Shown here one piece after another: positions 17,770 to 32,633 of a stretch of DNA of 64,000 nt. The position numbers and the translations under genes were made by a program. How positions within the stretch are numbered: position 1 is the stretch's first letter; each line of letters opens with the position of its first letter. The notes under the pieces were generated by a model. That model saw only the letters and a list, made by a program, of their open reading frames with translations. It made no database searches and was not told the DNA's origin. This stretch comes from an uncultured SAR116 cluster alpha proteobacterium (GTDB lineage: Bacteria; Pseudomonadota; Alphaproteobacteria; Puniceispirillales; Marisalimonadaceae), in contig CACMRG010000003.1 in assembly GCA_902616005.1 (NCBI GenBank), positions 1 through 64,000 of the forward strand, read 5' to 3'.

Positions 17770-17856
17770 GCGGTTGTGGCGGAATTGGTAGACGCGCAGC
17801 GTTGAGGTCGCTGTGGAGTAAAATCCGTGGAAGTTCGAGTCTTCTCAGCCGCACCA
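17770..17856 (+). tRNA. tRNA-Leu (anticodon GAG)
   Basis: An 87-base cloverleaf with a long variable arm, typical of class II leucine tRNA. The acceptor stem pairs GCGGTTG with CAGCCGC and is followed by A and an encoded CCA. The anticodon stem pairs CAGCG with CGCTG around the loop TTGAGGT, giving GAG (CUU/CUC codons). The T-loop text GTTCGAGTC is present. Confidence 0.97.
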
Positions 17857-18058: not shown

Positions 18059-18685
18059 ATGTATAAATTTATCAGTTTTTTTATTTTATTTGTATTACTT
18101 CCATTCACCAAAACTTTAGTTGCTGATGAAAATGATAGTAAGTCATATTTTGGTATAGATGGAGGATATGCATTTGTTGATCTAAAAGCAGAAGAAACCG
18201 CACAGACATTAGCTAATTTGTCAGGTAGTACAGTTACTTATCAAGAAGATCAAGCTGCAGGATATTTAAGATTTTATTATGGGTTTGCAGTAAGTGAAAA
18301 TCTAGATCTTCAAGCTGGATATTTTAATACATCAAGTATCTCTGCCACTTATACAATTGGTGCTAATTCAGCTTCAGAGAGTTATGAAGCTAGTGGATTT
18401 GACGCTTCTTTTAAATTTCGTCCAGATGTTCAAGGCGGATTTTATGCAAAACTAGGTGTTCATTATTCAGAATTAACAGGTAATGCGACAATAACAATTG
18501 GAGGAACTACCTACAACATCGCATCTGCTAAAGCAACTGGTTCTGGATTAATGTATGGTTTAGGATACGATTTTGGACAAAATGTTGATGGTTCTGGATG
18601 GAAAGTAGGATACGATATTTATAATAGTATAGGAGGTTTAAGTGGAGCTGACTTTGGTTTAATGTATTTAGGTTATAATTTTTAA
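18059..18685 (+). CDS. Predicted outer-membrane beta-barrel protein
   Basis: The 208-residue protein has a Sec signal peptide (residues about 1-22, MYKFISFFILFVLLPF). It is followed by alternating polar/hydrophobic strands such as YFGIDGGYAFVDL, AAGYLRFYYGF and LDLQAGYF, and it ends in LMYLGYNF. The C-terminal Phe and the Gly/aromatic strands are typical of small OmpW/OmpX/opacity-like barrels of about eight strands. GAGAGG lies seven bases before ATG. The role (porin-like or adhesion) is not evident. It is the first gene of the exported-protein region. Confidence 0.75.
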   Translation: MYKFISFFILFVLLPFTKTLVADENDSKSYFGIDGGYAFVDLKAEETAQTLANLSGSTVTYQEDQAAGYLRFYYGFAVSENLDLQAGYFNTSSISATYTIGANSASESYEASGFDASFKFRPDVQGGFYAKLGVHYSELTGNATITIGGTTYNIASAKATGSGLMYGLGYDFGQNVDGSGWKVGYDIYNSIGGLSGADFGLMYLGYNF

Positions 18686-18716: not shown

Positions 18717-19679
18717 ATGTTTAGATTTAGAATATTTTTTATTGTTTTTATATTAATATTATTTAATGCATGTCAAAAAAATATTCCCCGTCCATTTAAC
18801 AAAGCATTTAAAAGTAATGATGGTACAAAAACTGCCCTTTTTAACCAAAATATTTACTTAGAAGAGCGTAAACGTAAAGCTTTAGAGCAAAAATTAGTAT
18901 CATTAGAAAAAGAAAAAAAAAAGCGTATTAAAGAAGAAAAAAAAAAGAGAACACAACTAGAAAAGAAGTTAGCTGCTTTACAATTTGAAAAGAAAAAACA
19001 AATTAAGAACACTAAAAAAAACAAATTTGGTTCTGGTTTTTATGTAAGTAAGTTCAGACATATTGTTACTAATCAACACGTTGTGAGTAAGTGTAATAAG
19101 ATTACTGTGGGTGATAGTATGAAGACACAGATACCTGCAGACTTAATTGCCTCAGATAAAAGAAATGATTTAGCAATTCTTCAAACTATATCTATGGAGA
19201 TGGCTTCTTCTGATACAAAATTATTTGTTCAGAAGTTGTCTATCCAGATTGTACCTGTGTTATCTGGAGGATTGATGAGGTCAGAAGATGTCAATGGTGG
19301 TGAAGAGATACTAGTTGCAGGATATCCATTAGGTAATATGGTAAGTGATACAATGAAAGTAACAAAAGGTATCGTAAGTGCTACCAAGGGAATGGATAAT
19401 GATGTTAGTCAGTTTGAGATTGATGCTGTTATCAGAAAAGGAAATAGTGGCGGTCCTATTTATGACAAAAGAGGGAACATAGTTGGCGTAGCGGTATCAC
19501 GGTTAAATGTAAATAGAACTGATACAATTAATTTTGGTATTAAAGGTTCTACAGTTAAGCAGTTCTTATCTGCTCATGATATACCTACTAAATGGTCTAA
19601 TAGAGAAGATGAGATAGATACTAAAGACATCTATAAGATAGCCTCAAAACAAACGGTAATGGTTGTGTGCCATCGTTAA
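18717..19679 (+). CDS. Lipoprotein with coiled coil and trypsin-like protease domain
   Basis: About 320 residues. A lipoprotein-type signal (IFFIVFILILFNAC) is followed by a charged coiled coil at residues about 45-98 (Lys/Glu-rich, EERKRKALEQKLVSLEKEK). The chymotrypsin-fold protease domain runs from residue 101. The catalytic triad is intact: His121 in TNQHVV, Asp151 in RNDLAIL and Ser244 in GNSGGP. The protease part is identical at the DNA level to that of the MORN-repeat protease downstream. The domain family resembles bacterial S1C/DegP-like proteases but no PDZ domain is present. ATG 18717 and TTG 18711 are both possible starts. Likely anchored in the envelope; its substrate is unknown. 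Confidence 0.8.
   Translation: MFRFRIFFIVFILILFNACQKNIPRPFNKAFKSNDGTKTALFNQNIYLEERKRKALEQKLVSLEKEKKKRIKEEKKKRTQLEKKLAALQFEKKKQIKNTKKNKFGSGFYVSKFRHIVTNQHVVSKCNKITVGDSMKTQIPADLIASDKRNDLAILQTISMEMASSDTKLFVQKLSIQIVPVLSGGLMRSEDVNGGEEILVAGYPLGNMVSDTMKVTKGIVSATKGMDNDVSQFEIDAVIRKGNSGGPIYDKRGNIVGVAVSRLNVNRTDTINFGIKGSTVKQFLSAHDIPTKWSNREDEIDTKDIYKIASKQTVMVVCHR
19020..19676 (+). repeat. 657-bp perfect direct repeat, copy 1
   Basis: This segment encodes the whole trypsin-like domain of the first protease and matches 22626-23282 base for base as far as I can compare line by line. The copies differ on the first base outside each end. The separation is 3606 bases. Sequence outside the repeat is different, though both copies are preceded by a related Lys/Glu coiled-coil linker. 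Confidence 0.95.
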
Positions 19680-20047
19680 TGACTCATTAAGGTGGTTAAC
19701 ATCTCTATAATCACACCTGTGTAACACTACAAAAATAATTACGTACACACCCTAAGGTAGCTTATGCATGGGTAGAATATGTGTGAACACACTTATAAAG
19801 TCTTTTTATTAACGAAATATTTTTAAATCTAAAACAAATTATAAAACAAATAATGCGTATTTATATCATGTTATGAAAAAAAAATCTAAGCTAATACTAA
19901 AGTTAAATAAGTTACGGTCAGTCTATGAGAGTAAAATATTGAAATTGAATTAAATTTATTCAAATTATCTGTTTTTAAATTAATTCCCAAAAACAATATT
20001 AATATCTATAATATTTATGTTAATGTATTTAAAAGACTGGAATAATT
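19680..20047. other. 368-bp intergenic region without a recognised gene
   Basis: No credible coding frame is seen. It holds a weak inverted sequence GTGTGAACACAC near 19790, followed eight bases later by a T-run (TTTTTATT), which might terminate the protease transcript. The remainder is AT-rich, with no clear promoter before the small gene at 20048. Confidence 0.4.
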
Positions 20048-20386
20048 ATGACTACATCAAAACTAATTAATTATACAACAAGAGAGTTTGTTTCTGAAAA
20101 TGAATTAGAATTATATGCAGCTAAACAAGATGATATATTTACTCCAAGAGTTGTTGAAGAATTTAAAAAAGCAGGTATGCTAAGAAGAGTTTTAACGAGG
20201 ATTTGGAATAAAGATGGCGTAGCGAGGGTTGGGATATTATTTGAATATAGAGACGAAAAAGCTTTTGTAGCATGTCAGACATTATTAGACAAATATCATG
20301 CGCCAAAAGTTAAAACTTTTGTTAACAAAGTTGTTGGTAGTAGAGGCATTGTACTTCATGAGTTTACAGCAGATGATTTTAGATAG
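20048..20386 (+). CDS. Conserved small protein of unknown function, paralogue A
   Basis: A 112-residue soluble protein with no signal peptide. I do not recognise the family. It is clearly paralogous to the product of 32289-32633. Shared text includes VEEFKKAGMLR / MEELSKAGLVR, WNKD, FEY-x2-EKAF-x-ACQ / FEY-x2-EKAY-x-ACQ, a PK-x-K, and RGI near the C terminus. The size and the alternation of strand and helix would suit a dimeric alpha-beta barrel (ferredoxin-like) fold, but that is inference. It stands alone between exported-protein genes. Confidence 0.7.
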   Translation: MTTSKLINYTTREFVSENELELYAAKQDDIFTPRVVEEFKKAGMLRRVLTRIWNKDGVARVGILFEYRDEKAFVACQTLLDKYHAPKVKTFVNKVVGSRGIVLHEFTADDFR

Positions 20387-20567
20387 TGTTTAATTGATGC
20401 TGTTTTTACGCATTTATATCAACTTTATACAAACACCAATAATATTGATCAATTATTCTTTTAATAACACATATGGTAGGGCGAGTAAGTGAAAACACTT
20501 TAGATATTAATTACAAATATTTTGTGTCAGAATTAATATCTTTATTAAATCCTATTGTTAAATCTTT

Positions 20568-21152
20568 TTAATGATATAATTTACTTCTTTTAGTTTCAAT
20601 TTTATTAAAGTATGTTTTTTTTAATTCATTTAATAAATCATCTGGCAACTCTATTTGAGTAATTTTCCAATCAATTCCTATTCGTTGAAATAATAGTGAT
20701 ATTTCATGCTCATTAACTGTATGATTTATAATAAAAGAATTATAGTTTTTAAATTTTATGATTTTAAATCCACCTATTAATGTATCAAAACTAGGTTTTG
20801 GTAGTTTTTTTGCCAATTGATTTTTTTTTAACAAAACACTTAAACCTTCGGAATTAACGTATCTATCTAGAATACTATCTATAATTTTTGATGCAAAACC
20901 TGTAATTAAAACACCTAAACCACCCAAATTATTAAAATTTGCATCTTTTTGAATTTCCTGAAGTAAATTTACATTCATATAATTTTTAAGATTTTGTCTG
21001 AACTTTTTCCATTCAATATATTCTTTAATAAGTGTCTTATCGTTATAGTAAATACCTTTGTGAATTTGGTGTGTTGAATAAAGGGCTGAAAATAAGTAGG
21101 CAATTATAGCTAAAATACTAATTACTATCGAACTTATAAAAAATTTTTTCAT
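20568..21152 (-). CDS. DUF2939-like membrane-anchored protein
   Basis: A 194-residue protein with an N-terminal membrane anchor (FFISSIVISILAIIAYLFS). After it comes LYSTHQIHKGIYYNDKTLIKEYIEWKKFRQNLK, which fits the DUF2939 pattern of a tyrosine/His-containing start, an acidic-aromatic turn and a following arginine helix. DRYVNSEGLSVLL resembles the family's second conserved block (D-x-x-V-T-P-E-G-L). Members are of unknown function and usually face the periplasm. It is the only minus-strand gene in its surroundings, with 250 bases of AT-rich spacer before the MORN protease. Confidence 0.65.
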   Translation of the reverse strand: MKKFFISSIVISILAIIAYLFSALYSTHQIHKGIYYNDKTLIKEYIEWKKFRQNLKNYMNVNLLQEIQKDANFNNLGGLGVLITGFASKIIDSILDRYVNSEGLSVLLKKNQLAKKLPKPSFDTLIGGFKIIKFKNYNSFIINHTVNEHEISLLFQRIGIDWKITQIELPDDLLNELKKTYFNKIETKRSKLYH

Positions 21153-21401
21153 TAAAAATATTATACCAAATTTAAATTCTTTATTAAAAGTTAAAAATGT
21201 ATAAAAGAAATTATACTATAAAGAATGGAATCAGTCATATAAAGTAGTATGGAATACATAAGAAATATATTTGAAAAAAAAAGGGTTATGTATTTGTTCT
21301 AATTGTATTCGTTTGATCAAATAGCTTTATGAAAAAATTTTAAATTATAGTAGTTTTTTCACAGGATTAACATTTATAAAATAATATTATAATATAACGA
21401 T

Positions 21402-23288
21402 ATGTTTTTTTTTAGAAAATTAATTTTACTCATCTCCCTAACAATCTGTATCGGTGTCAGTTATGCATCAAACATTAAAAACTGTCCAACCTGTACAAAT
21501 AATTCCTCTAAAGAAACAAAAGATAATCCAAATAATCAAAGTTCAAATCAATTAGATTTGTCAGATATTGGATGTATTTTTGCGTTTTCTGACCGGGCAC
21601 AATGTAGAGTGAAAAGGTTAAGTGATATAGAAATTTGTGAAATTATTGAAAGAGGTAGATTATCAAATGTTATAACTGAAGAACTTTTCAAAAAAAGTTT
21701 AAAAGAGGGCAAAAAAAGGTCTTTAAAATGTATAGACATTAGAGAAAAACCTACAAAAGTTATATCTAACTTATCAATAAATAAAAATGAAAATAAAAAA
21801 AATAAATGTCCTGAAAGTATTAAAGCGTATAAGGATAATTGTTATGGTTTTTTTAGATATAAAGATGGAGTTTTATATGAAGGATATTTTAAAAAAAACA
21901 AGTTTCATGGAAAAGGCAAGTATGTTTTTGGTGAAAATAGTGATTATTTCAGGAGCAAGTATGAAGGTCAATTTAAACAAGGGAAATTTGATGGATATGG
22001 TGAATTCTTAATTAACAATGGTGATGTTTATAAAGGGCAATTTAAGAATAATAAATATGAAGGTTATGGAACATATAAGTTTAAAAATGGCGAATCATAT
22101 CGAGGCAATTGGAAATATGGAAAATACCATGGTGTAGGAACTTTATATTTACTCTCTGGTGATAAATTATCTGGACAATTTAAAGATGGGAAAGCAAACG
22201 GAGAAGGTATTTATATCTACTCTAATAAAGGTAAATGGGCTGGTTATAAATATGAAGGTCAGTTTGCTAATGGAAAAAGAAATGGAAATGGAGTGTTAAC
22301 TTATGCTTCAGGAGCTCAATACAAAGGAAATTGGAAAAAGGATAAAAAGCATGGACAAGGTATTTATATTTCAAAAAATAAAAAAATCACTAATGGAACA
22401 TGGAGAAATGGAAAATTTGTTAAAGAAGATAATATAAAATCTAAAAATGCAAGACCATCTACATTATCTGTGGAGTCTCAAAAAGAAAGACATAAGATAA
22501 TAGCTTTGCAAAATAAGGCAGAAAAAGAAAAACGAAGGCGTAAAGCTTTAGAAAAAAGAGTTGCTGAGTTAGAAAAAAAGAATAGAGAGTTACAACAACC
22601 AAAAATACTTCAGCAAAAGCAATTGAACAAATTTGGTTCTGGTTTTTATGTAAGTAAGTTCAGACATATTGTTACTAATCAACACGTTGTGAGTAAGTGT
22701 AATAAGATTACTGTGGGTGATAGTATGAAGACACAGATACCTGCAGACTTAATTGCCTCAGATAAAAGAAATGATTTAGCAATTCTTCAAACTATATCTA
22801 TGGAGATGGCTTCTTCTGATACAAAATTATTTGTTCAGAAGTTGTCTATCCAGATTGTACCTGTGTTATCTGGAGGATTGATGAGGTCAGAAGATGTCAA
22901 TGGTGGTGAAGAGATACTAGTTGCAGGATATCCATTAGGTAATATGGTAAGTGATACAATGAAAGTAACAAAAGGTATCGTAAGTGCTACCAAGGGAATG
23001 GATAATGATGTTAGTCAGTTTGAGATTGATGCTGTTATCAGAAAAGGAAATAGTGGCGGTCCTATTTATGACAAAAGAGGGAACATAGTTGGCGTAGCGG
23101 TATCACGGTTAAATGTAAATAGAACTGATACAATTAATTTTGGTATTAAAGGTTCTACAGTTAAGCAGTTCTTATCTGCTCATGATATACCTACTAAATG
23201 GTCTAATAGAGAAGATGAGATAGATACTAAAGACATCTATAAGATAGCCTCAAAACAAACGGTAATGGTTGTGTGCCATCGTAACTAA
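21402..23288 (+). CDS. Exported MORN-repeat / coiled-coil / trypsin-like protease fusion
   Basis: 628 residues in four parts. A Sec signal peptide ends near SYAS (residue about 23). A short Cys-pair segment follows at about 65-110 (LSDIEICEI ... KKRSLKC). Seven full MORN repeats and a partial eighth lie at about 150-345 (units such as YKGQFKNNKYEGYGTYKF). Then come a charged coiled coil (about 365-405) and a trypsin-like domain with His428, Asp458 and Ser551 in TNQHVV, NDLAIL and GNSGGP. MORN repeats bind lipids or proteins in other systems, so the array may tether or regulate the protease. The protease part is an exact DNA copy of the domain at 19020-19676. Substrate and partners are unknown. 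Confidence 0.85.
   Translation: MFFFRKLILLISLTICIGVSYASNIKNCPTCTNNSSKETKDNPNNQSSNQLDLSDIGCIFAFSDRAQCRVKRLSDIEICEIIERGRLSNVITEELFKKSLKEGKKRSLKCIDIREKPTKVISNLSINKNENKKNKCPESIKAYKDNCYGFFRYKDGVLYEGYFKKNKFHGKGKYVFGENSDYFRSKYEGQFKQGKFDGYGEFLINNGDVYKGQFKNNKYEGYGTYKFKNGESYRGNWKYGKYHGVGTLYLLSGDKLSGQFKDGKANGEGIYIYSNKGKWAGYKYEGQFANGKRNGNGVLTYASGAQYKGNWKKDKKHGQGIYISKNKKITNGTWRNGKFVKEDNIKSKNARPSTLSVESQKERHKIIALQNKAEKEKRRRKALEKRVAELEKKNRELQQPKILQQKQLNKFGSGFYVSKFRHIVTNQHVVSKCNKITVGDSMKTQIPADLIASDKRNDLAILQTISMEMASSDTKLFVQKLSIQIVPVLSGGLMRSEDVNGGEEILVAGYPLGNMVSDTMKVTKGIVSATKGMDNDVSQFEIDAVIRKGNSGGPIYDKRGNIVGVAVSRLNVNRTDTINFGIKGSTVKQFLSAHDIPTKWSNREDEIDTKDIYKIASKQTVMVVCHRN
22626..23282 (+). repeat. 657-bp perfect direct repeat, copy 2
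   Basis: Second copy of the protease-domain repeat, offset by 3606 bases from 19020-19676. It begins at the base before the codon for Asn in NKFGSGF and ends two bases before the stop region, where the copies diverge (one extra Asn codon here). Confidence 0.95.
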
Positions 23289-23304
23289 AATTAATACATA
23301 AATG

Positions 23305-23332
23305 AAGCTTGTTTAAACTAGCATTCAAGCTT
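23305..23332. repeat. Inverted repeat after the MORN protease
   Basis: AAGCTTG (23305-23311) pairs with CAAGCTT (23326-23332) around a 14-base loop, 17 bases after the stop codon. No T-run follows, so it is a poor intrinsic terminator; it may still protect the 3' end or be chance. Confidence 0.3.
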
Positions 23333-23389
23333 GACTTGATAAGATTTAAAAAAATAATATAATTGAAATTTAATTTTATTTGAAAACTT

Positions 23390-23570
23390 ATGGCACTAAC
23401 TAAATTTGAAAAAGAACATAGAGAATATACCGAGTATAGAAAAATATTGCTCAGCGAGATGCAGCAAAGGCATCAATTAAGCAAGCAGAGGCAACTCAAA
23501 AGATAGCTAAAGAGGCAGTTAAACAAACTGAATTTTAAAAAAAACTGAGTCCTTAAAACAACAAGAAATT
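23390..23570 (+). pseudogene. 5' fragment of an interrupted coiled-coil protein gene
   Basis: From ATG 23390 the frame reads MALTKFEKEHREYTEYRK. The sensible Ala/Lys-rich coiled coil then continues in another frame (NIAQRDAAKASIKQAEATQK) from about 23443 to a TAA at 23536. A third frame continues from about 23532 (KKTESLKQQEILRKKEIEE) into the open frame at 23571. Both shifts fall at A-rich runs (around 23440 and 23536). Joined, they would make one protein with the gene at 23571-24437. This could be real decay, sequencing or assembly error in homopolymers, or, less likely, programmed shifting. Confidence 0.5.
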
Positions 23571-24437
23571 TTGAGGAAAAAAGAAATTGAAGAACGAATT
23601 AGCTATATAAAGAAAGTTATAGCAAAATTAAAATTCGAAATATCTGATGTTGATTTATCAGAGGGTAGTGGTAGAGCTGAAAAATTTTTAAAGATTAATA
23701 AAGAGTTTATTGTAAATGCGTCTAATTATCGAGAAGCATTAATTGAATTAGGAGAAACAGACTTAATTGAAAGTTTTATTAATTTTGAAAAAAAATTAAA
23801 AACTGTTAGAACTTCTATTTATAAAAATCCAAAGGATGCTAATTATATTCAATTAAAAGAAAATTTGATAAAGCTTCAAGATCTTATAAAAAAAAAGGAA
23901 ATAATTGAAGATGAAATTGCTGATCTAGAGAATAACCTCAAAGAAAATATTTCTTTGAAAAATAGTTTTTCTGAAAATTATTGTAATGTTTTTAATATTA
24001 GCAGTATAGAATTTAAAAAGATAATAAATGAAGATAGTATTAAATTTCCGAAATCTGGTTTTTTTATAATGATATTAAGAAGGTTTCTTTTAACATGTGG
24101 ATTTTTTTTAATTTTAGCATATTTTACAACTATAAATACTCCAGGATTTCAAAAGAATATTAGTGTTCTTATTGCTATAATTGTTCTTACATTTATTATT
24201 GCAGCTTTTGTTGGGAGAAAAACAGTAAAAAAAAGAGCTATAATATCCAAAATTGAAAAAGAATATAGAAAATTTAAAGTTAATGAAGAGAGATATGAAA
24301 TTAATTCCAAAAATTTAAAAGAGCAAAATAATATTCTTAAAAACTTAACAAATAATATCAATTCAGTTAAAAAAGAATTAGAAAAATTAAAAGAGAAAGC
24401 ACATAAATTAGGAAATGATATAAGAGAAATTTTCTAA
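23571..24437 (+). CDS. Coiled-coil membrane protein (probably 3' part of a broken gene)
   Basis: 288 residues from a TTG start. The layout is a charged coiled-coil stretch (about 1-150), two membrane segments (about 170-188, LLTCGFFLILAYF, and 198-212, LIAIIVLTFIIAAF), and a second coiled coil to the C terminus. No family was recognised. The same frame is open back to about 23532, and coiled-coil coding text continues upstream in other frames, so the annotated start is probably not the original one. It faces the caspase gene convergently, 32 bases away. Confidence 0.55.
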   Translation: MRKKEIEERISYIKKVIAKLKFEISDVDLSEGSGRAEKFLKINKEFIVNASNYREALIELGETDLIESFINFEKKLKTVRTSIYKNPKDANYIQLKENLIKLQDLIKKKEIIEDEIADLENNLKENISLKNSFSENYCNVFNISSIEFKKIINEDSIKFPKSGFFIMILRRFLLTCGFFLILAYFTTINTPGFQKNISVLIAIIVLTFIIAAFVGRKTVKKRAIISKIEKEYRKFKVNEERYEINSKNLKEQNNILKNLTNNINSVKKELEKLKEKAHKLGNDIREIF

Positions 24438-24469
24438 AATGTATATCTAATCTCATTAAGTATTAATAT

Positions 24470-25963
24470 CTAGTTGAACTGAACTAATACTGTTTTACCA
24501 TCACCTTGTAATTCAGGAGTTTGTAAGCCAGATGATTGTTGTATAACGTTCTCTCTAACATATTCATGAAGTTCAAGTGCTGTTATCTTATTGTCATTGT
24601 TAGTGTCTGCGAAACCTTCCATGCCTTTCATTAAGAAGTATGAGAACATTCCATGTTTAGCTTCTTCAAGCGGACGCGATATCTGTTCATTAGATGCAGC
24701 AGATAGGAGGATAAAATTATCTGGAATAGTTTGTTTTTTAACTTTAATTACAATAGGTCTTCCTGCTATAAGCATTTCCTCATTACGTGTTACACCTGAG
24801 TAGCATGTATCTAGAAAAACTGTTACACTTCGAGGATTGGATTGTTTGATGTCTTTGAATAATTCATTACGTAAAATAGCAGTTTTTTCAAGTAGTCTTG
24901 GTGAACCATCATGTGGAAGAAGATACATGTTTTTACCATCTTGGGACGCAAGACCATGACCAGCGAAAAATACGAATACATCTGACTTGTTAGTCATAAC
25001 AGAACGTCTTAACCACTCTTTTACTGATAAAAGAATTTCTTGTTCAGTTGCTTTATCATTTAATAAGATCCTTATTTTGTTTTCAGGTACACCTAGTTTT
25101 TCCGATGCAAAATCTTTGAAAAGTACTGCGTCTCTGTCTGCATAGAGCGCATCACCATTAGTGTTTTTATATCCTTCAATACCAACGATTAGAGCCAAAG
25201 CATTATTTTTTATAGATACTTTTTTATTGTTTAAAGGGTTAAGTTTTTTAAATTTTAGTTTAGTTTCTGTATTTGTATTTTTTCTTAAAAAAGTTACTTG
25301 CTTAGAAGTTTCTAGACCTGACTTATCAATTACAATAATTGATAATTCTAAGCCAGATAATGGTACAAAAGTTGAGTATTCGAATTTTCCATGACTATCA
25401 AAAAAAATGCTTTCATTATCAATTAATAATTTTTCTATTCCTAAGTTATCGCTAACTAACCCTCTAATAATACCAACTTTATTTTTAACTGTTTTGAATT
25501 TAATAATTAAGCTAGGTTGCTCTTTATCCGTGGTAATTTTAAACTTTTCTTCTTTTTTTTCTAAATTTAAATTTTTTTTCCAAAATTCACTCTCGTAACT
25601 ATTAGTAATTTTTTTTTTGCACTTAATATTTCTTTTTTTTATTTCTCTTTCCCATTTTAATATTTCAAATTTATTACTTCTATCAGAAGAATTAATATAC
25701 ATTGAACAAATATTTTTGTCAGTAGCTTTTAAATAAGTTTTACAGTAAAGCCCTCTTAAAAAGGCCTCTTTAACGTATTTACCGTACTCTCCATCAACTG
25801 CAACCCATACATTCCCATAGGAAGAAGTTTTTGAAGTTGCTAATTTACATATTTCTGCATCAGATTTACTAAACTCTGATGAATACAAGGTATGAATACA
25901 AATTAAAGGAGATAAAAAAATTAAAAAAAAGAATAAATTGAATTTTTTAATTATATATTTCAA
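24470..25963 (-). CDS. Exported caspase-like protease (orthocaspase) with EF-hand loop
   Basis: 497 residues from a TTG start one base after the upstream lipoprotein stop. A signal peptide (about 12-30, LFFFLIFLSPLICI) is followed by two Cys-pair segments (DAEIC ... RGLYC and DKNIC ... KRNIKC). A beta-rich middle comes next, then a C14 caspase domain from about residue 265 (ALIVGIEGY). The catalytic dyad is His336 in FAGHG and Cys387 in DTCYSG. Residues 453-464 (DTNNDNKITALE) match a canonical EF-hand calcium loop. Caspase-like proteins with Lys/Arg specificity are often Ca2+-activated; here secretion would expose the site to external Ca2+. The catalytic half is less AT-rich than the N-terminal half. 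Confidence 0.85.
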   Translation of the reverse strand: MKYIIKKFNLFFFLIFLSPLICIHTLYSSEFSKSDAEICKLATSKTSSYGNVWVAVDGEYGKYVKEAFLRGLYCKTYLKATDKNICSMYINSSDRSNKFEILKWEREIKKRNIKCKKKITNSYESEFWKKNLNLEKKEEKFKITTDKEQPSLIIKFKTVKNKVGIIRGLVSDNLGIEKLLIDNESIFFDSHGKFEYSTFVPLSGLELSIIVIDKSGLETSKQVTFLRKNTNTETKLKFKKLNPLNNKKVSIKNNALALIVGIEGYKNTNGDALYADRDAVLFKDFASEKLGVPENKIRILLNDKATEQEILLSVKEWLRRSVMTNKSDVFVFFAGHGLASQDGKNMYLLPHDGSPRLLEKTAILRNELFKDIKQSNPRSVTVFLDTCYSGVTRNEEMLIAGRPIVIKVKKQTIPDNFILLSAASNEQISRPLEEAKHGMFSYFLMKGMEGFADTNNDNKITALELHEYVRENVIQQSSGLQTPELQGDGKTVLVQFN

Positions 25964-25964
25964 T

Positions 25965-26300
25965 TTACTTACATTTAAGTTTTTGTTGAGCTGTATTTAT
26001 AGCCTCTACTTCACCCTTCCATTTTGCAACGTCACCTTCATGGTCTCCAGACAACTTACTGGCTGGAATTAAAACAAAAAATACAGTACCTGCATCTAAA
26101 TTTGCTTTAGAATTTTGCATATCAGAATATTTTTGTAATTCTCCTCTTGCATCGCTCATTTTTGTTGCTAATTGTGTACAAGAATAGTCCATATACTTTT
26201 CATGTGAAACATATGAAGCAGCAATTGAAGATGGCCTCGAAGCACATGATGTAATAAATAGTAAAGTTAAAAACATAAAAATGAATTTTGTTCTATACAT
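25965..26300 (-). CDS. Small lipoprotein upstream of the caspase gene
   Basis: 111 residues. The signal ends in a lipobox (LFITSC), followed by ASRPSSIAASYVSHEKYMDYSCTQLA, an amphipathic region and a Cys-ending C terminus (QQKLKCK). The N-terminal ASYVS...Y...SC-x-QL pattern occurs in a family of small proteobacterial lipoproteins of unknown function. ATG 26300 is chosen because AGGAG lies seven bases upstream; an upstream in-frame start would place ten odd residues before the signal peptide. It is followed after one base by the caspase start, so the two form an operon. Confidence 0.75.
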   Translation of the reverse strand: MYRTKFIFMFLTLLFITSCASRPSSIAASYVSHEKYMDYSCTQLATKMSDARGELQKYSDMQNSKANLDAGTVFFVLIPASKLSGDHEGDVAKWKGEVEAINTAQQKLKCK

Positions 26301-26486
26301 ATAATAACTCCTATAAATTATGTCTAACATGATTCAATAAATTTGCATAGGATTTCTTATATTTTTAAACAATCCAATTACTTATTTTAAAACTAATAAT
26401 ATTTAAAAGTAAAAGATGTATTTATTGTAAAAAATGTGAACAACGGAAAATAATTTTATTTCGTACGTTTATATAGGAATAATTAA

Positions 26487-27833
26487 TCAATTCTTTATCT
26501 TTACAATTTTAATTTTCTCATCAGATAATGTTGTAAACTCATGTATTAATTTTTTAAGTTTAATAAGTTTTTTGGTTAATTCCTTCTGTTTTTTAGTTAT
26601 TCTTTGAAGAGCAACTAATGAATCATTTGCATTTGTAAAGTCTTTGTTAAGAATGGAGCTAGTTCCAGCAGAGTAAAAGTACTTGCCTGCTTTTCTAAAA
26701 AAACCTTGTTTCTCAAATATTAAACCAGAATTAAAGTAAGCAAAATTATTTTTATTATTCAAAGAAATTGCTTTTTGGTATGCGGCAACTGATTTATCAT
26801 AATCTCCTAATTTAGTATAAACAAAGCCAAGGCCATTAAAATATATATCCTTTGGTTTAATGGCAATTGAGTCTAAAAAACTTGAAGAAGCTTTTTTATA
26901 TTGATTAAGCATTAAATATGAACGTCCTTTTAAAAAAATTAGTTCATGATTAGTGGCATTAATTTTTAATTTTTCATCAATTAAATCTATTGCTTTATTA
27001 TACTCACCCAATGAAAATAAAATATTTGGATTTATAATATTTTTATTTTTTATAGGTATTATTTTTTTATCAATAGGTACATTCATATATTTTAATTGTA
27101 ATTTATTATTTATAGTTTTTCTATCTGGAATAGTTTTAACTAATCGTCTTACTGCTGCATCTAACATTTGTAGCGCTACTTCTTCCTCAGTATTTGTTGA
27201 TGCTGAAAAAATTCCTGTGGCAAGACTTATTGGTGAAAGCGGAATTGTTCCTGCCCTTGAGGAAGCAATATGATTACCTTGCCACAGAAGTTCGCCATTT
27301 CGTTTTTTCAAAGAGAGGTATAAACCTACTTGTGTTGAAGAAAAAGCGACATAAAATTTATTTTCAAATTTTAAGATTTCACCTTCTAGTATAGCATCGC
27401 AATTAAGTGTTTTTAAAACAAGGTTAATATTTTTTTTAAGTTTTAAAAAATAAGTCATTTGATGAATTTCAACATCTCGGTATTTTTTTGGCGATAAATG
27501 ACCGTAAAGAGAATATTTTGCAAGGTTTACTTTATCTAATTTTGGAAACTCGTTTTTGTCTGACTTATCTTCTATTTTTCCTATAGCTATACAATTAATT
27601 TCTTCTGGATCAAAATTTTCATTAATTAAATATTTTACTTCCGGTAAGATGCTATCAGATTTAGTAAAATTTTTGACTTGCAAATATTTAGGTGTTTGGC
27701 AAGATGAAAGTATTAAAATCAAAAAAATAAATGGATAATTAATAAAAATTTTTTTTATGTATAAATTTAGAAAATATTTATTCACTTGTTTTGCCTTTAT
27801 TATATTTGCATATTCATTAAAAGCATACTCCAT
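26487..27833 (-). CDS. TPR lipoprotein with GNA1162/DUF799-like N-terminal domain
   Basis: A lipoprotein signal (FIFLILILSSCQ) is followed by a domain with CIAIGKIEDKS, NCDAILEGEI and LLWQGNHIASSRAGTIPLSP. This recalls the GNA1162/DUF799 lipoproteins and the CsgG/LpoB-type fold. About four TPR units then follow (EYNKAIDLIDEKLKIN, QYKKASSSFLDSIAIKP, DYDKSVAAYQKAISLN, FFRKAGKYF). The start is unresolved: the signal peptide would naturally begin near 27758-27747, where only ATA or ATT codons occur. The nearest in-frame ATG (27833) lies inside the divergent protease gene and has no ribosome binding site. I give that ATG as the outer limit. Confidence 0.6.
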   Translation of the reverse strand: MEYAFNEYANIIKAKQVNKYFLNLYIKKIFINYPFIFLILILSSCQTPKYLQVKNFTKSDSILPEVKYLINENFDPEEINCIAIGKIEDKSDKNEFPKLDKVNLAKYSLYGHLSPKKYRDVEIHQMTYFLKLKKNINLVLKTLNCDAILEGEILKFENKFYVAFSSTQVGLYLSLKKRNGELLWQGNHIASSRAGTIPLSPISLATGIFSASTNTEEEVALQMLDAAVRRLVKTIPDRKTINNKLQLKYMNVPIDKKIIPIKNKNIINPNILFSLGEYNKAIDLIDEKLKINATNHELIFLKGRSYLMLNQYKKASSSFLDSIAIKPKDIYFNGLGFVYTKLGDYDKSVAAYQKAISLNNKNNFAYFNSGLIFEKQGFFRKAGKYFYSAGTSSILNKDFTNANDSLVALQRITKKQKELTKKLIKLKKLIHEFTTLSDEKIKIVKIKN

Positions 27834-29280
27834 AACAAATAATGAATATAGTAAAATCAATAATTTGATTGAATTAGAAAATATTGATAAGGCATTCAAA
27901 GAATTAAAGGTCATTCAAAAAAAAGAGAGTAAATTATCTGCAAAAGTTCAAATATTAATTGGAAAAATTTATTTGTCATTAGAACAACCTGCTAAAGCGT
28001 TTGATTATTTTAATAAAGCGACTTTTACTTCTGTCACAACTGATGATTTAGCCTATGCAGGAATGTCACTAGCTTCTATCAAATTAGGAAACTTAATTGA
28101 TGCCCAAAAGTTTGCTAATAAATCACTTAATAAAAATCCTGATTTAATAGATGCAAAACTAGCCTTAGGTTTAATTTATTCAGATTTAGGGCAATATGAT
28201 GAATCAGAAAAATTTTTTAAGTCTGCGATATTAGCAAGTGGCACATCATTATTTGCCACAAGACAATATGCTTCAAATGAAATGAGAAAAGGAAACAATA
28301 AAAAAGCAAAAGAAATTATTAATAAAGTTCTTCTTGAAAAAAAAGCAGATGCTGCAACTACTGATTTGTTAGGTAAACTTTATTGGCTCGAAGGAAATAT
28401 AGAGGAATCTTTAAGACTTAGAACAAATGCATCTTTGATGTTCAAAAAAGCAGGAAACATAGCTCGTTCTGAACAAATTATAAATTGGCTAAACACGTCA
28501 GCAACTTTAAAAGTAAATCAAATAATCGAGGACAAATCTAAACCTAAAGTTAAAGAGATTATTACAAAACAAAAACCATCCATTAAAAAAACTATTCAAC
28601 AAAATGATAATCCTGAGCCAATTAATATTAATTCTAAAAAAGAATTTTTTACTGGTAGTGGTGTAGTTTTGAATAATGGAAAATGGATAATTACTAATAG
28701 ACATGTTGTTAAGGGGGCAAAATATATTTCTGTTAGAAATGGACTAGGAAAAGTAAGAACTGTAAAGTCTGTTCAATATCCAAGTAATGATAAAATAGAT
28801 TTAGCGTTATTAATTTTATCAAAACCTTATCCTTCTGACTACAGTATTAAGTTTAATGAAATTAATTTACCCAAAACTGGACAAAAGATTTTTGTTATGG
28901 GTTACCCAATATCTTCAATTTTAGGTAGATTTAACCCTTCTATCACTGAAGGAATTATTAGCAAGAATAGAGGGTTTGGAGAAGTTGTTGACGAATTTCA
29001 AATTACAGCACCAATTAATAAAGGTAGCAGTGGTGGCCCTATATTTAATGCATATGGTGAGATTGTGGGTATAGCAGTAGCTGGTTTAGATAAATTAACT
29101 CTAATGAAGGAACAAGGCTTTATACCCCAAGACATCAATCTGGGGATTTCTTCTAATGTTTTAAAAGATTTTCTTAATCAACCAATAATAGCCTCTATAA
29201 ACAATAAAAAAGGAAGTTTTGATGCATCACAAATTTATCAATTTATGCGGCCATCAGTTGTTTTTGTGGTTTGCCAGTAG
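27757..29280 (+). CDS. Exported TPR / trypsin-like protease fusion
   Basis: 507 residues. After a signal peptide (about 6-24) come TPR-like repeats (about 30-240; units such as AKAFDYFNKATF, LIDAQKFANKSLNKNPD and QYDESEKFFKSAIL). A Lys/Pro-rich linker (about 255-290) leads to a trypsin-like domain starting FFTGSGVVLNNGKWIITNRHVV. The triad is His316, Asp348 (KIDLALL) and Ser425 (GSSGGP). It is a diverged relative of the two identical proteases upstream and shares their C-terminal ending (SVVFVVC here, TVMVVC there). It is divergent from the TPR lipoprotein, with the start regions touching, and overlaps the next gene by about 59 bases. Confidence 0.85.
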   Translation: MYKFRKYLFTCFAFIIFAYSLKAYSITNNEYSKINNLIELENIDKAFKELKVIQKKESKLSAKVQILIGKIYLSLEQPAKAFDYFNKATFTSVTTDDLAYAGMSLASIKLGNLIDAQKFANKSLNKNPDLIDAKLALGLIYSDLGQYDESEKFFKSAILASGTSLFATRQYASNEMRKGNNKKAKEIINKVLLEKKADAATTDLLGKLYWLEGNIEESLRLRTNASLMFKKAGNIARSEQIINWLNTSATLKVNQIIEDKSKPKVKEIITKQKPSIKKTIQQNDNPEPININSKKEFFTGSGVVLNNGKWIITNRHVVKGAKYISVRNGLGKVRTVKSVQYPSNDKIDLALLILSKPYPSDYSIKFNEINLPKTGQKIFVMGYPISSILGRFNPSITEGIISKNRGFGEVVDEFQITAPINKGSSGGPIFNAYGEIVGIAVAGLDKLTLMKEQGFIPQDINLGISSNVLKDFLNQPIIASINNKKGSFDASQIYQFMRPSVVFVVCQ

Positions 29281-30061
29281 TTTATTAATAATTATTTTTT
29301 TATCCACTAATGTCTTAGCAAAATGGGTTGAAGCTGAAGGAAGATATTTTATTGATAGAAAAACAACCCGCGAAGAGGCTTGTAATATAGCTTTAGAAGA
29401 GGCAAAGCAAAATGCTTTAAAAAAAATAGTTGGTGAAAAACTAAATTCTAGTCAGCTTGAAGTTTGTACAGATGATGATAATAAATCACGTTGTACACTT
29501 TATCAAAATACATTTAATTATATTGAAGGTGGTTACATTACTGAGATTAAAAATAAAAAAGAAGAGATATTACAAAGTGCACCTGAAAAAGAATGTCTTA
29601 TTAGAATAGATGCTTTTATTAAAGAGTATGAAGAAAAACCTGACGTAAATTTTACTCTTGAAGCAAATCTGAATCAAAAACCAAGATTATACGCTGGGAA
29701 AAAAATTAGTATAACTGGTGAAGTAATGCAAAAATCCTATATAACAGTTTTAGGATGGTATCCAGATTTTGATAAAGAAAATTACTATCAAATTTTTCCT
29801 AATCAATATGATAAAAATAATTTAGTTGAAAAACTATTTAATATTCCGAGTAAAAATAATACAAAATACAAGCTTGTGACAAAATTTCCAAACAATTTTG
29901 CTCAAGATGAAACTTATGAATTTTTCGTAATAGTTGCATCAAAAAAAAAATTAGACATACTTAGTAAACAAAATATTATAGAATTTAATAAAAGACTCTC
30001 ACTTTTAGGACGCTCTAACTGGGAGATGAAGAAACTTGGATATACAATAATGAGGGATTAA
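29222..30061 (+). CDS. Exported DUF4384-like protein
   Basis: About 280 residues with a hydrophobic signal (LFLWFASSLLIIIFLSTNVLA). The N-terminal domain reads WVEAEGRYF...TREEACNIALEEAKQNALKKI, a form seen in FlgT/LPP20-like envelope proteins. The C-terminal domain has AGKKISITGEV, GWYPDFDKENYYQIFPNQYDKNN and ETYEFFVIVASKK. That corresponds to the DUF4384 pattern (a beta-rich module with a Phe/Pro-Asn strand). ATG 29222 lies inside the end of the protease gene (59-base overlap); TTG 29258 or 29264 would give a more compact signal peptide. Function is unknown; DUF4384 modules often sit with caspases or kinases. Confidence 0.65.
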   Translation: MHHKFINLCGHQLFLWFASSLLIIIFLSTNVLAKWVEAEGRYFIDRKTTREEACNIALEEAKQNALKKIVGEKLNSSQLEVCTDDDNKSRCTLYQNTFNYIEGGYITEIKNKKEEILQSAPEKECLIRIDAFIKEYEEKPDVNFTLEANLNQKPRLYAGKKISITGEVMQKSYITVLGWYPDFDKENYYQIFPNQYDKNNLVEKLFNIPSKNNTKYKLVTKFPNNFAQDETYEFFVIVASKKKLDILSKQNIIEFNKRLSLLGRSNWEMKKLGYTIMRD

Positions 30062-30062
30062 A

Positions 30063-30677
30063 ATGAGATATATTACTTATACGATCATACTATTTTTGTT
30101 AACGATTTTAAATGCATGTGCTCCAAAGCCCGGAACACCTGAAGCTGCTTTAAAAATTAAACAAGAAGCTATAAAAGCTCAAAAAAACAAAGTGGATAAA
30201 ACAGTATCTAGTATTCCAAAATGGTGTTTAAATCCTCCTTTGTCTGACCTAGCTTTATCAGCGTGTGGAACTGGAGAATCATCAAATATGAATATGGCTA
30301 GGAACAGGGCTATTTTAGATGGCAAAAGGGTGTTAGCTGATAAAATGGATAGTGAAATTTCATCTAGAATGGATGATTTTTTAAAATCCACTGGAACATT
30401 TGAAAATGAACAAGTAAAGCAAGCTAGTGAAATTGTAACTAAAAATACGACTATTGAAGCAAAACTTACTGGGTATAAACAAAAAAAAAGTGAAGCAGTT
30501 AGCATGAGTGGAAAGTTTCAATTTTATGTTCTTTTGGAATATCCTATTGGCAAGGCTAACCAAGCTTTACTTAATCAAATTAAAAAAAATGAAATCTTAA
30601 GTACTCAAAAAGATGCAGATAAAGCAATGGCAGAATTAGAGGCTGAGATTGAGAAAAGAAGAAAAAGTAAAGAATAA
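30063..30677 (+). CDS. LPP20-like lipoprotein
   Basis: 204 residues with a lipobox (LLTILNAC) after a short signal peptide. The mature part has IPKWCLNPPLSDLALSACGTGESSNMNMARN and RAILDGKRVLADKMDSEISSRM. This is the W-x-x-x-P ... G-x-(G/A)-x-S-x(n)-A-x(n)-A-x-x-x-L/ A layout of LPP20-family lipoproteins. It ends with a charged helix (MAELEAEIEKRRKSKE). It starts one base after the DUF4384-like gene, so protease, DUF4384-like protein and this lipoprotein form one transcription unit. The role is probably structural or assembly-related in the outer membrane. Confidence 0.7.
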   Translation: MRYITYTIILFLLTILNACAPKPGTPEAALKIKQEAIKAQKNKVDKTVSSIPKWCLNPPLSDLALSACGTGESSNMNMARNRAILDGKRVLADKMDSEISSRMDDFLKSTGTFENEQVKQASEIVTKNTTIEAKLTGYKQKKSEAVSMSGKFQFYVLLEYPIGKANQALLNQIKKNEILSTQKDADKAMAELEAEIEKRRKSKE

Positions 30678-32288: not shown

Positions 32289-32633
32289 ATGGTAAAACCA
32301 ATAACTAAAGAAACATTATTTATGAATTGCATGGAACTAGATTTTGCGACAAAAATTGAACTTGAACACTGGATTGCTACTTTTGAAGAAAAAGTTTGGA
32401 CCAAAGATGTCATGGAAGAGTTGTCAAAAGCTGGTTTAGTTAGAACTACAGCAGCGCAAGTTTGGAATAAGGATAATCATAGAATTACAAGAATATTTGA
32501 ATATGAAAATGAAAAGGCGTACAGAGCTTGTCAGGCAATTATAGAAAAAAAAATAATGCCAAAAGCTAAGGTAAGTTATAATTCTAAAATTAGAAATAAT
32601 AGAGGTATTATTTTTTATGATTATAGGAGTTAA
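32289..32633 (+). CDS. Conserved small protein of unknown function, paralogue B
   Basis: 114 residues, soluble, with no signal peptide. It is paralogous to the product of 20048-20386 (shared EELSKAGLVR, VWNKD, FEYENEKAYRACQ, PKAKV and RGI). The family was not recognised. The distance to the next gene is 19 bases, so it may be co-expressed with the GFA-type protein. Its own N terminus (about 25 residues) is unlike that of the first copy. Confidence 0.7.
   Translation: MVKPITKETLFMNCMELDFATKIELEHWIATFEEKVWTKDVMEELSKAGLVRTTAAQVWNKDNHRITRIFEYENEKAYRACQAIIEKKIMPKAKVSYNSKIRNNRGIIFYDYRS

Follow-up and report, generated by a model that had tools for sequence, protein, structure and literature searches.

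Exported caspase and trypsin effectors exchanged beside a conserved core in SAR116, SAR11 and Litoricola: a possible periplasmic defence system

Do exported trypsin-like and caspase-like proteases encoded side by side in one genome act together, and if they do, for what purpose? We addressed this question in an uncultured SAR116 cluster alphaproteobacterium, using a window of 64,000 nucleotides (assembly GCA_902616005.1, contig CACMRG010000003.1, positions 1 to 64,000 of the forward strand). Pfam finds three trypsin_2 proteins, carrying a coiled coil, MORN repeats and TPRs, respectively, and one C14 caspase where a first-pass annotation of the letters had placed them. The joint function suggested there, with envelope surveillance, proteolytic activation or controlled lysis as conceivable roles, gains support from a neighborhood that is conserved in two further alphaproteobacteria besides SAR116, SAR11 and Litoricola, but instead of one fixed island we found a constant core and an exchangeable, partly mobile effector repertoire. 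In the core, the gene for a CsgG/GNA1162-like TPR lipoprotein and an operon-like row encoding a TPR-trypsin, a DUF4384 protein and an LPP20 lipoprotein are arranged divergently. The effectors, named A, B and C in the window, follow a common format: a signal peptide or lipobox, a variable N-terminal part (N-part), often a coiled-coil or immunoglobulin-like (Ig-like) linker, and a constant C-terminal caspase or trypsin. We are highly confident that this exported core-plus-effector system is real and that its parts are functionally linked.

The linkage is visible across genomes, nearly all of which are single-cell or metagenome drafts where absence in any one means little. Among 136 genomes of the SAR116 order, whose loci named here belong to the SAR116 cluster, 15 contain an orthologue of the core TPR-trypsin and 33 the caspase, and all 15 core genomes also have the caspase (hypergeometric P = 3e-11). 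In every one of the 13 core genomes with enough contig the caspase adjoins the core, so the genes do not occur independently in these relatives. Caspase arrays are accompanied by a diverged core in single-cell genomes of SAR11 (L133-L136, L138-L140, L142 and L153), in Litoricola (L128) and in alphaproteobacterium BS150m-G7 (L129); in genome G239 (L165), the core neighbors a trypsin effector. The His, Asp and Ser of the core trypsin are invariant in 11 orthologues ranging from SAR116 to SAR11 and Litoricola. DUF4384 profile matches occurred in 3 of 385 genomes sampled class-wide and in 4 of 247 of the SAR11 order; the DUF4384 core protein was nevertheless present in all seven tested caspase-bearing genomes outside SAR116, and the combination of low overall counts with this full count indicates that the set is rare, sporadic and linked.

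Caspases and trypsins alternate at corresponding positions. The small lipoprotein accompanying Effector C is identical at 97 of 109 positions in G001 (single-amplified genome AG-920-B04, a single-cell genome independent of the window's own genome, G000); the slot behind it holds a caspase in G000, G015 and G017 and a trypsin in G001, the N-part there being identical at 84 of 120 positions. From its start onward, Effector B is a homologue of MORN-caspases that flank the core elsewhere; the MORN slot contains a trypsin in the window and a caspase in other genomes. Similarly, the slot behind the gene at 18059 holds a trypsin in the window and a caspase in G043 (L076), where the flanking gene is identical at 147 of 205 positions and the N-part match to the window is short but above 200 shuffles. 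As far as sequence comparison reaches, these sites demonstrate that caspase and trypsin were exchanged on related N-parts at orthologous places. A fusion of trypsin module and DUF4384 domain in G012 ties an effector to the core.

A shared protease module had been pointed out as well. This holds for Effectors A and B, whose modules agree at every one of 660 nucleotides (copies 1 and 2 in Table 1), whereas the core TPR-trypsin represents another subfamily, 34% identical to the constant modules. The identity runs from the domain boundary to just short of the stop codon, and outside it the two genes have zero similarity. The exact match could be a product of assembly, near-identical copies having been collapsed onto one consensus with no real recent conversion: short reads are shorter than 660 nucleotides, the draft genome is fragmented, and two of its short contigs, C44 and C50, are made of such genes. 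We consider this improbable, however, as G001 has its own module pair, with about 745 identical nucleotides, different ends and unrelated N-parts, and in G020 one module is a mosaic in which two tracts are 100% identical to the paralogue while the remainder is nearer its orthologue; moreover, even collapsed copies must have been near-identical. The exact identity in the window could have been sharpened by assembly, but the near identity and the conversion process are independent of that, and the module comparisons establish, at the level of sequence, homogenization of the trypsin modules within genomes by gene conversion. Contigs C44 and C50 (L065 and L066) themselves contain four further trypsin-module effectors and almost nothing else, the assembly breaking there.

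The caspase arrays show a different pattern. Tandem caspase modules are 97% identical in G103 and 95% in G074, while most pairs of the array bodies lack significant similarity. With dS (synonymous divergence) of 0.61-0.74 and dN (nonsynonymous divergence) of 0.023-0.056, the likeness of these modules mostly reflects strong purifying selection and not recent conversion. At L131, five consecutive caspase genes each overlap the next by 7 nucleotides. Broken or orphan caspase fragments, with internal stops or as C-terminal ends of 37-115 amino acids, lie near intact genes at L079, L077, L076 and L094 and suggest effector turnover.

The enzymes are catalytically intact by sequence and appear exported. 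The catalytic residues, thought intact in the first-pass annotation, are indeed so: His and Cys are present in 50 of 50 complete caspase modules, and the triad is intact in all trypsin modules in alignments inspected by eye. Effector C, with a cysteine-paired N-part, an Ig-like middle and intact catalytic His and Cys, has the Peptidase_C14 domain and His–Cys dyad that define an orthocaspase (C14). An EF-hand-like loop, ADxNxDxxIT..EL, is conserved in the C-terminal part of nearly all caspase modules, including that of Effector C, and suggests from its sequence a possible calcium dependence. By a home-made rule based on hydrophobic segment, lipobox and lack of a later transmembrane segment, a signal-like N terminus was found in 99 of 115 effectors against 131 of 613 neighboring open reading frames (ORFs), in line with the common export first proposed; the same rule called export-like 25 of 27 LPP20, 31 of 34 DUF4384, 14 of 16 CsgG-TPR and 22 of 28 TPR-trypsin proteins. 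Several SAR11 effectors share the signal peptide MKRLLAYLFIVLG... A two-cysteine motif, C..A(T)...EAKRRGLxC, recurs in 33 of 135 effectors, caspases and trypsins alike, and in 4 of 824 other ORFs. It sits in the N-parts (e.g., L071:12072-13868, L066 and Effector C) and was assigned to no Pfam family in the scans made; its paired cysteines fit an oxidizing compartment.

The N-parts are highly diverse. Pfam searches of 110 of them gave 31 Ig-like Glucodextran_B linkers, 16 MORN and 7 Sel1 matches, as well as TPR and PDZ domains and single cases of SBP_bac_5, OpuAC, Bmp, FliL, SurA_N and others. In the SAR11 SBP_bac_5-caspase (L132 and L185), the N-part is identical at 409 of 519 positions (79%) to a stand-alone solute-binding protein (SBP), whose gene is intact, 8 kb away and followed by permease genes in an ATP-binding cassette transporter gene row. 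From this similarity, the fusion appears to be a host periplasmic protein captured in front of a caspase, or the reverse. For the Bmp and OpuAC N-parts, derivation from a host paralogue was also considered and dropped, no such gene being found in their incomplete genomes.

Some effector loci bear signs of mobility. In G074, two perfect 76-nucleotide copies of tRNA-Gly enclose an integrase and a caspase array; phage-type integrases adjoin tRNA-Ser (L166 and L172), tRNA-Gly (L171) and tRNA-Arg (L074); and at L130 a caspase lies between 48-nucleotide repeats of the tRNA-Glu end. Judged from these sequence arrangements, some versions of the effectors have demonstrably spread on tRNA-integrase islands. 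Within L130:3597-14822, the tRNA-Glu 3' end occurs at three further places (41-48 of 48 nucleotides), forming stacked integration sites.

As an explanation of these patterns, we propose an exported two-tier proteolytic system in which a constant core serves a variable repertoire of effectors; for the proposal in full, we see the chances as evenly balanced. The core would act as a platform, located in the periplasm or at the outer membrane. The N-parts, among them MORN, Sel1, TPR, PDZ, solute-binding proteins, FliL and coiled coils, would serve there as baits or sensors for something attacking or entering the envelope. A disturbed bait would present its effector to the core TPR-trypsin, or the effector would activate itself, and the constant protease would then cleave proteins of the envelope or of the invader, leading to defense or cell death. 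The need for every effector to work with a single core might keep the constant modules alike. The precise activation order outlined here is doubtful. For a defense-like role, read from the genomic pattern, we would give even odds; the sporadic, mobile and diversifying occurrence fits defense or self-killing better than housekeeping. The combination of constant core, constant enzyme and variable front is, by analogy, that of a receptor repertoire, unlike polymorphic toxins in which the enzyme varies, and baits copied from host SBPs would follow the principle of integrated decoys in plant nucleotide-binding leucine-rich repeat receptors.

Several observations weigh against the proposal. Caspases occur without a detectable core in 18 of the 33 caspase-bearing genomes of the order, partly through incompleteness, and capture of an effector N-part from the same genome was seen in one of three tests, the genomes again being incomplete. 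PADLOC-DB 2.0.0 has no family specific to the set and matched it only with generic caspase, RT-Protease, PDC and TPR models. No integrase was detected at the window island and no attachment (att) repeat around or downstream of its tRNA-Leu; as no downstream repeat was found, an integration-site role of this tRNA can only be presumed. The phage collection searched contains no match to the caspase, and viral contigs only two distant relatives, one of them among phage-like genes (L180); a phage origin of the caspase was consequently rejected.

The same genes could alternatively belong to envelope quality control or a stress response, with HtrA/DegS-like proteases and substrate-binding N-parts maintaining the envelope under changing conditions. 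The effectors share with HtrA, DegP and DegS an exported trypsin fold with an intact triad, and the trypsin modules do score to DegP/DegS models; MORN, TPR, Sel1 and PDZ are common protein-interaction domains, and the core lipoproteins resemble the LPP20 and GNA1162 families. However, the score is 84 bits against a DegP cut-off of 416 and no PDZ domain was matched in the window effectors, on which grounds membership in the HtrA/DegP family was rejected; HtrA-type proteases differ from the modular N-parts and multi-copy variation seen here; the genome has a separate HtrA-like match (C6); and the sporadic spread, tRNA-integrase islands and swapped repertoire are unlike housekeeping. We therefore regard quality control as unlikely.

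Less probable still is that the effectors are secreted polymorphic weapons against competitors or kin, with the N-part as targeting region, the protease as toxin and the core as machinery of export or anchoring. The variable effector arrays on islands and their signal peptides would suit such a role, and the lipoprotein and CsgG-like parts could together make up a platform for export. Known polymorphic toxins have a constant N-terminal trafficking part, a variable C-terminal toxin and an adjacent immunity gene. Here the order is reversed, the C-terminal part being constant and the N-part variable; no immunity gene, a small cognate gene for each effector, was recognized; and the N-parts include ordinary periplasmic solute-binding proteins. 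Membership among the polymorphic toxins was rejected accordingly. Chance clustering of ordinary, unrelated exported proteases has next to no probability, for while Trypsin_2 and C14 domains are common and the neighbors at 20048, 20568 and 23571 look unrelated, it is ruled out by synteny and co-occurrence, with a core order kept across families and classes, a caspase in every core genome, and fusions and swaps.

Among described systems, the exported core-plus-effector set comes closest to those of Kaur et al. 2020 (PMC7159879), in which caspase and trypsin peptidases take alternative positions and an EACC1-caspase membrane system has up to 50 variable domains. Their two-gene EACC1-caspase system (System 4) resembles the present set in combining, within one protein, a constant caspase with variable partner domains, some of them periplasmic-binding-protein domains, and likewise in membrane proximity and presumed proteolytic activation. 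There, however, the variable part follows an N-terminal caspase, the reverse of the order here; the partner EACC1 is a single-transmembrane protein, whereas here the proteins are exported and the neighbor is a small lipoprotein; and only the present set has caspase–trypsin interchange and a four-gene exported core. Membership was rejected, model NF047832 (caspase_w_EACC1) giving 70.5 bits against a cut-off of 140, and Pfam and NCBIfam scans of window genes showed no recognizable EACC1 gene. The ternary vWA-MoxR systems of VMAP/iSTAND type and the NucA-peptidase systems (PMC7159879) likewise have trypsin or caspase peptidases in the same position and host-subsystem domains proposed as decoys, but they are centered on an NTPase or nuclease and found mainly in multicellular bacteria, whereas the present hosts, SAR116 and SAR11, are planktonic. 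The proteins of the system yielded no NTPase, vWA or nuclease domain, and vWA, MoxR ATPase and VMAP were not seen by Pfam among ten window proteins, other neighbors being inspected by eye. The theme is common with the systems of Kaur et al. 2020; domain order, export, core, recognized parts and hosts differ.

Likenesses to other assemblies and organisms are more partial. FlgO/FlgP/FlgT and CsgG-type outer-membrane assemblies share with the core an LPP20-like lipoprotein, an exported protein whose small N-domain contains cysteine, and a lipoprotein of CsgG/GNA1162-like type that could serve as a platform; the resemblance of the core proteins to FlgP and FlgT is one that we presume. Unlike in those assemblies, no flagellar or curli genes were seen nearby, and here TPRs are fused and proteases are present. 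On plasmid pSULFM1 of Sulfurimonas aquatica (L184), a caspase gene similarly overlaps a gene for an LPP20 family lipoprotein, but the caspase is 29% identical and no trypsin, DUF4384 or CsgG core match was obtained with the models used. With this case from another phylum, the caspase–LPP20 pairing may be older and wider.

The features of the locus are collected in Table 1. Four lipoproteins, not three as first counted, are identified by readable lipoboxes. The ORF of Effector A starts at TTG 18711 or ATG 18717, and the outer-membrane-protein-like gene at 18059 probably belongs to the island. For the window proteins alone, the DUF4384 and LPP20 matches fall under the Pfam cut-off; among orthologues, the former appears in seven of eight (best E 7.8e-7), bearing out the DUF4384-like exported protein of the first-pass annotation, and the latter in eight of eight (best E 2.9e-6), while the core lipoprotein is GNA1162-like in five of seven members. 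The AlphaFold model of the DUF4384 core protein (pLDDT, a model confidence score, 81) gave no convincing fold in Foldseek (template modeling score < 0.3 to query), the CsgG-TPR model (pLDDT 58) was too poor for structure search, and PDB profile searches gave no match. The divergent CsgG-TPR and TPR-trypsin genes have an apparent 5' overlap at 27757-27914, and up to 62 nucleotides at the end of the TPR-trypsin gene are shared with the DUF4384 gene (29219-29280); comparable overlaps of core genes in relatives indicate that regulation or translation may be coupled. Between Effectors A and B, an exported DUF2939 protein (20568-21152, minus strand) matches over its full length the PADLOC phage-defense-candidate model PDC-S55 (E 1.1e-26). 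Small NIPSNAP-like genes lie at 20048-20386 and 32289-32633, and relatives of these adjoin effector islands at L072, L073, L076 and L079.

Table 1. Features of the protease and caspase locus, in window coordinates
Feature	Position	Strand	Evidence and remarks
tRNA-Leu (gag)	17770..17856	+	ARAGORN; left edge of island, possible integration site
Outer-membrane-barrel-like exported protein	18059..18685	+	Partner of adjacent effector slot; putative barrel, from sequence
Effector A: lipoprotein (LFNAC), coiled coil and trypsin_2 module	18717..19679	+	Pfam PF13365, E 1.7e-23
Constant trypsin module, copy 1	19018..19677	+	660 nt, 100% identical to copy 2
Effector B: exported protein, MORN repeats and trypsin_2 module	21402..23288	+	PF13365, E 4.7e-23; 7 MORN stretches
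Constant trypsin module, copy 2	22624..23283	+	660 nt, inside Effector B
Effector C: exported caspase (C14)	24470..25963	-	PF00656, E 1.9e-18; NCBIfam
Small lipoprotein (ITSC) accompanying Effector C slot	25965..26330	-	Found with the slot in G001, G015 and G017
Core CsgG/GNA1162-like lipoprotein (LSSC) with TPRs	26487..27914	-	Alignment; start probably near 27788
Core TPR-trypsin, proposed initiator protease	27757..29280	+	PF13365, E 6.3e-23
Core exported DUF4384 protein	29219..30061	+	Orthologue-supported match; start may lie downstream of 29219
Core LPP20-type lipoprotein (LNAC)	30063..30677	+	Orthologue-supported match

SAR11 and SAR116 are abundant ocean bacteria with streamlined genomes and, to our knowledge, few recognized defense systems. 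The bacterial caspase and trypsin effector systems that we know of are described as cytoplasmic or membrane-bound. In the literature searched, we found no description of the present set, as the first-pass annotation had supposed, and nothing relevant on exported or periplasmic caspases, on caspases in SAR11 or SAR116, or on LPP20 together with DUF4384. We tentatively raise the possibility that it represents an undescribed periplasmic system of innate immunity or programmed death in Gram-negative bacteria, in which exported caspase and trypsin arrays with interchangeable baits work with one lipoprotein–TPR–trypsin platform and have spread in SAR116, SAR11 and Litoricola on tRNA-integrase islands, gene conversion of the constant protease modules holding the system together. 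If this is true, sensing and killing would be placed in the periplasm, the first site of arrival of phage DNA, bacteriocins and predators, and baits copied from solute-binding proteins would give a direct prediction of what is guarded. It would also bear on the phage resistance of SAR11 and SAR116 populations despite their few recognized defense systems.

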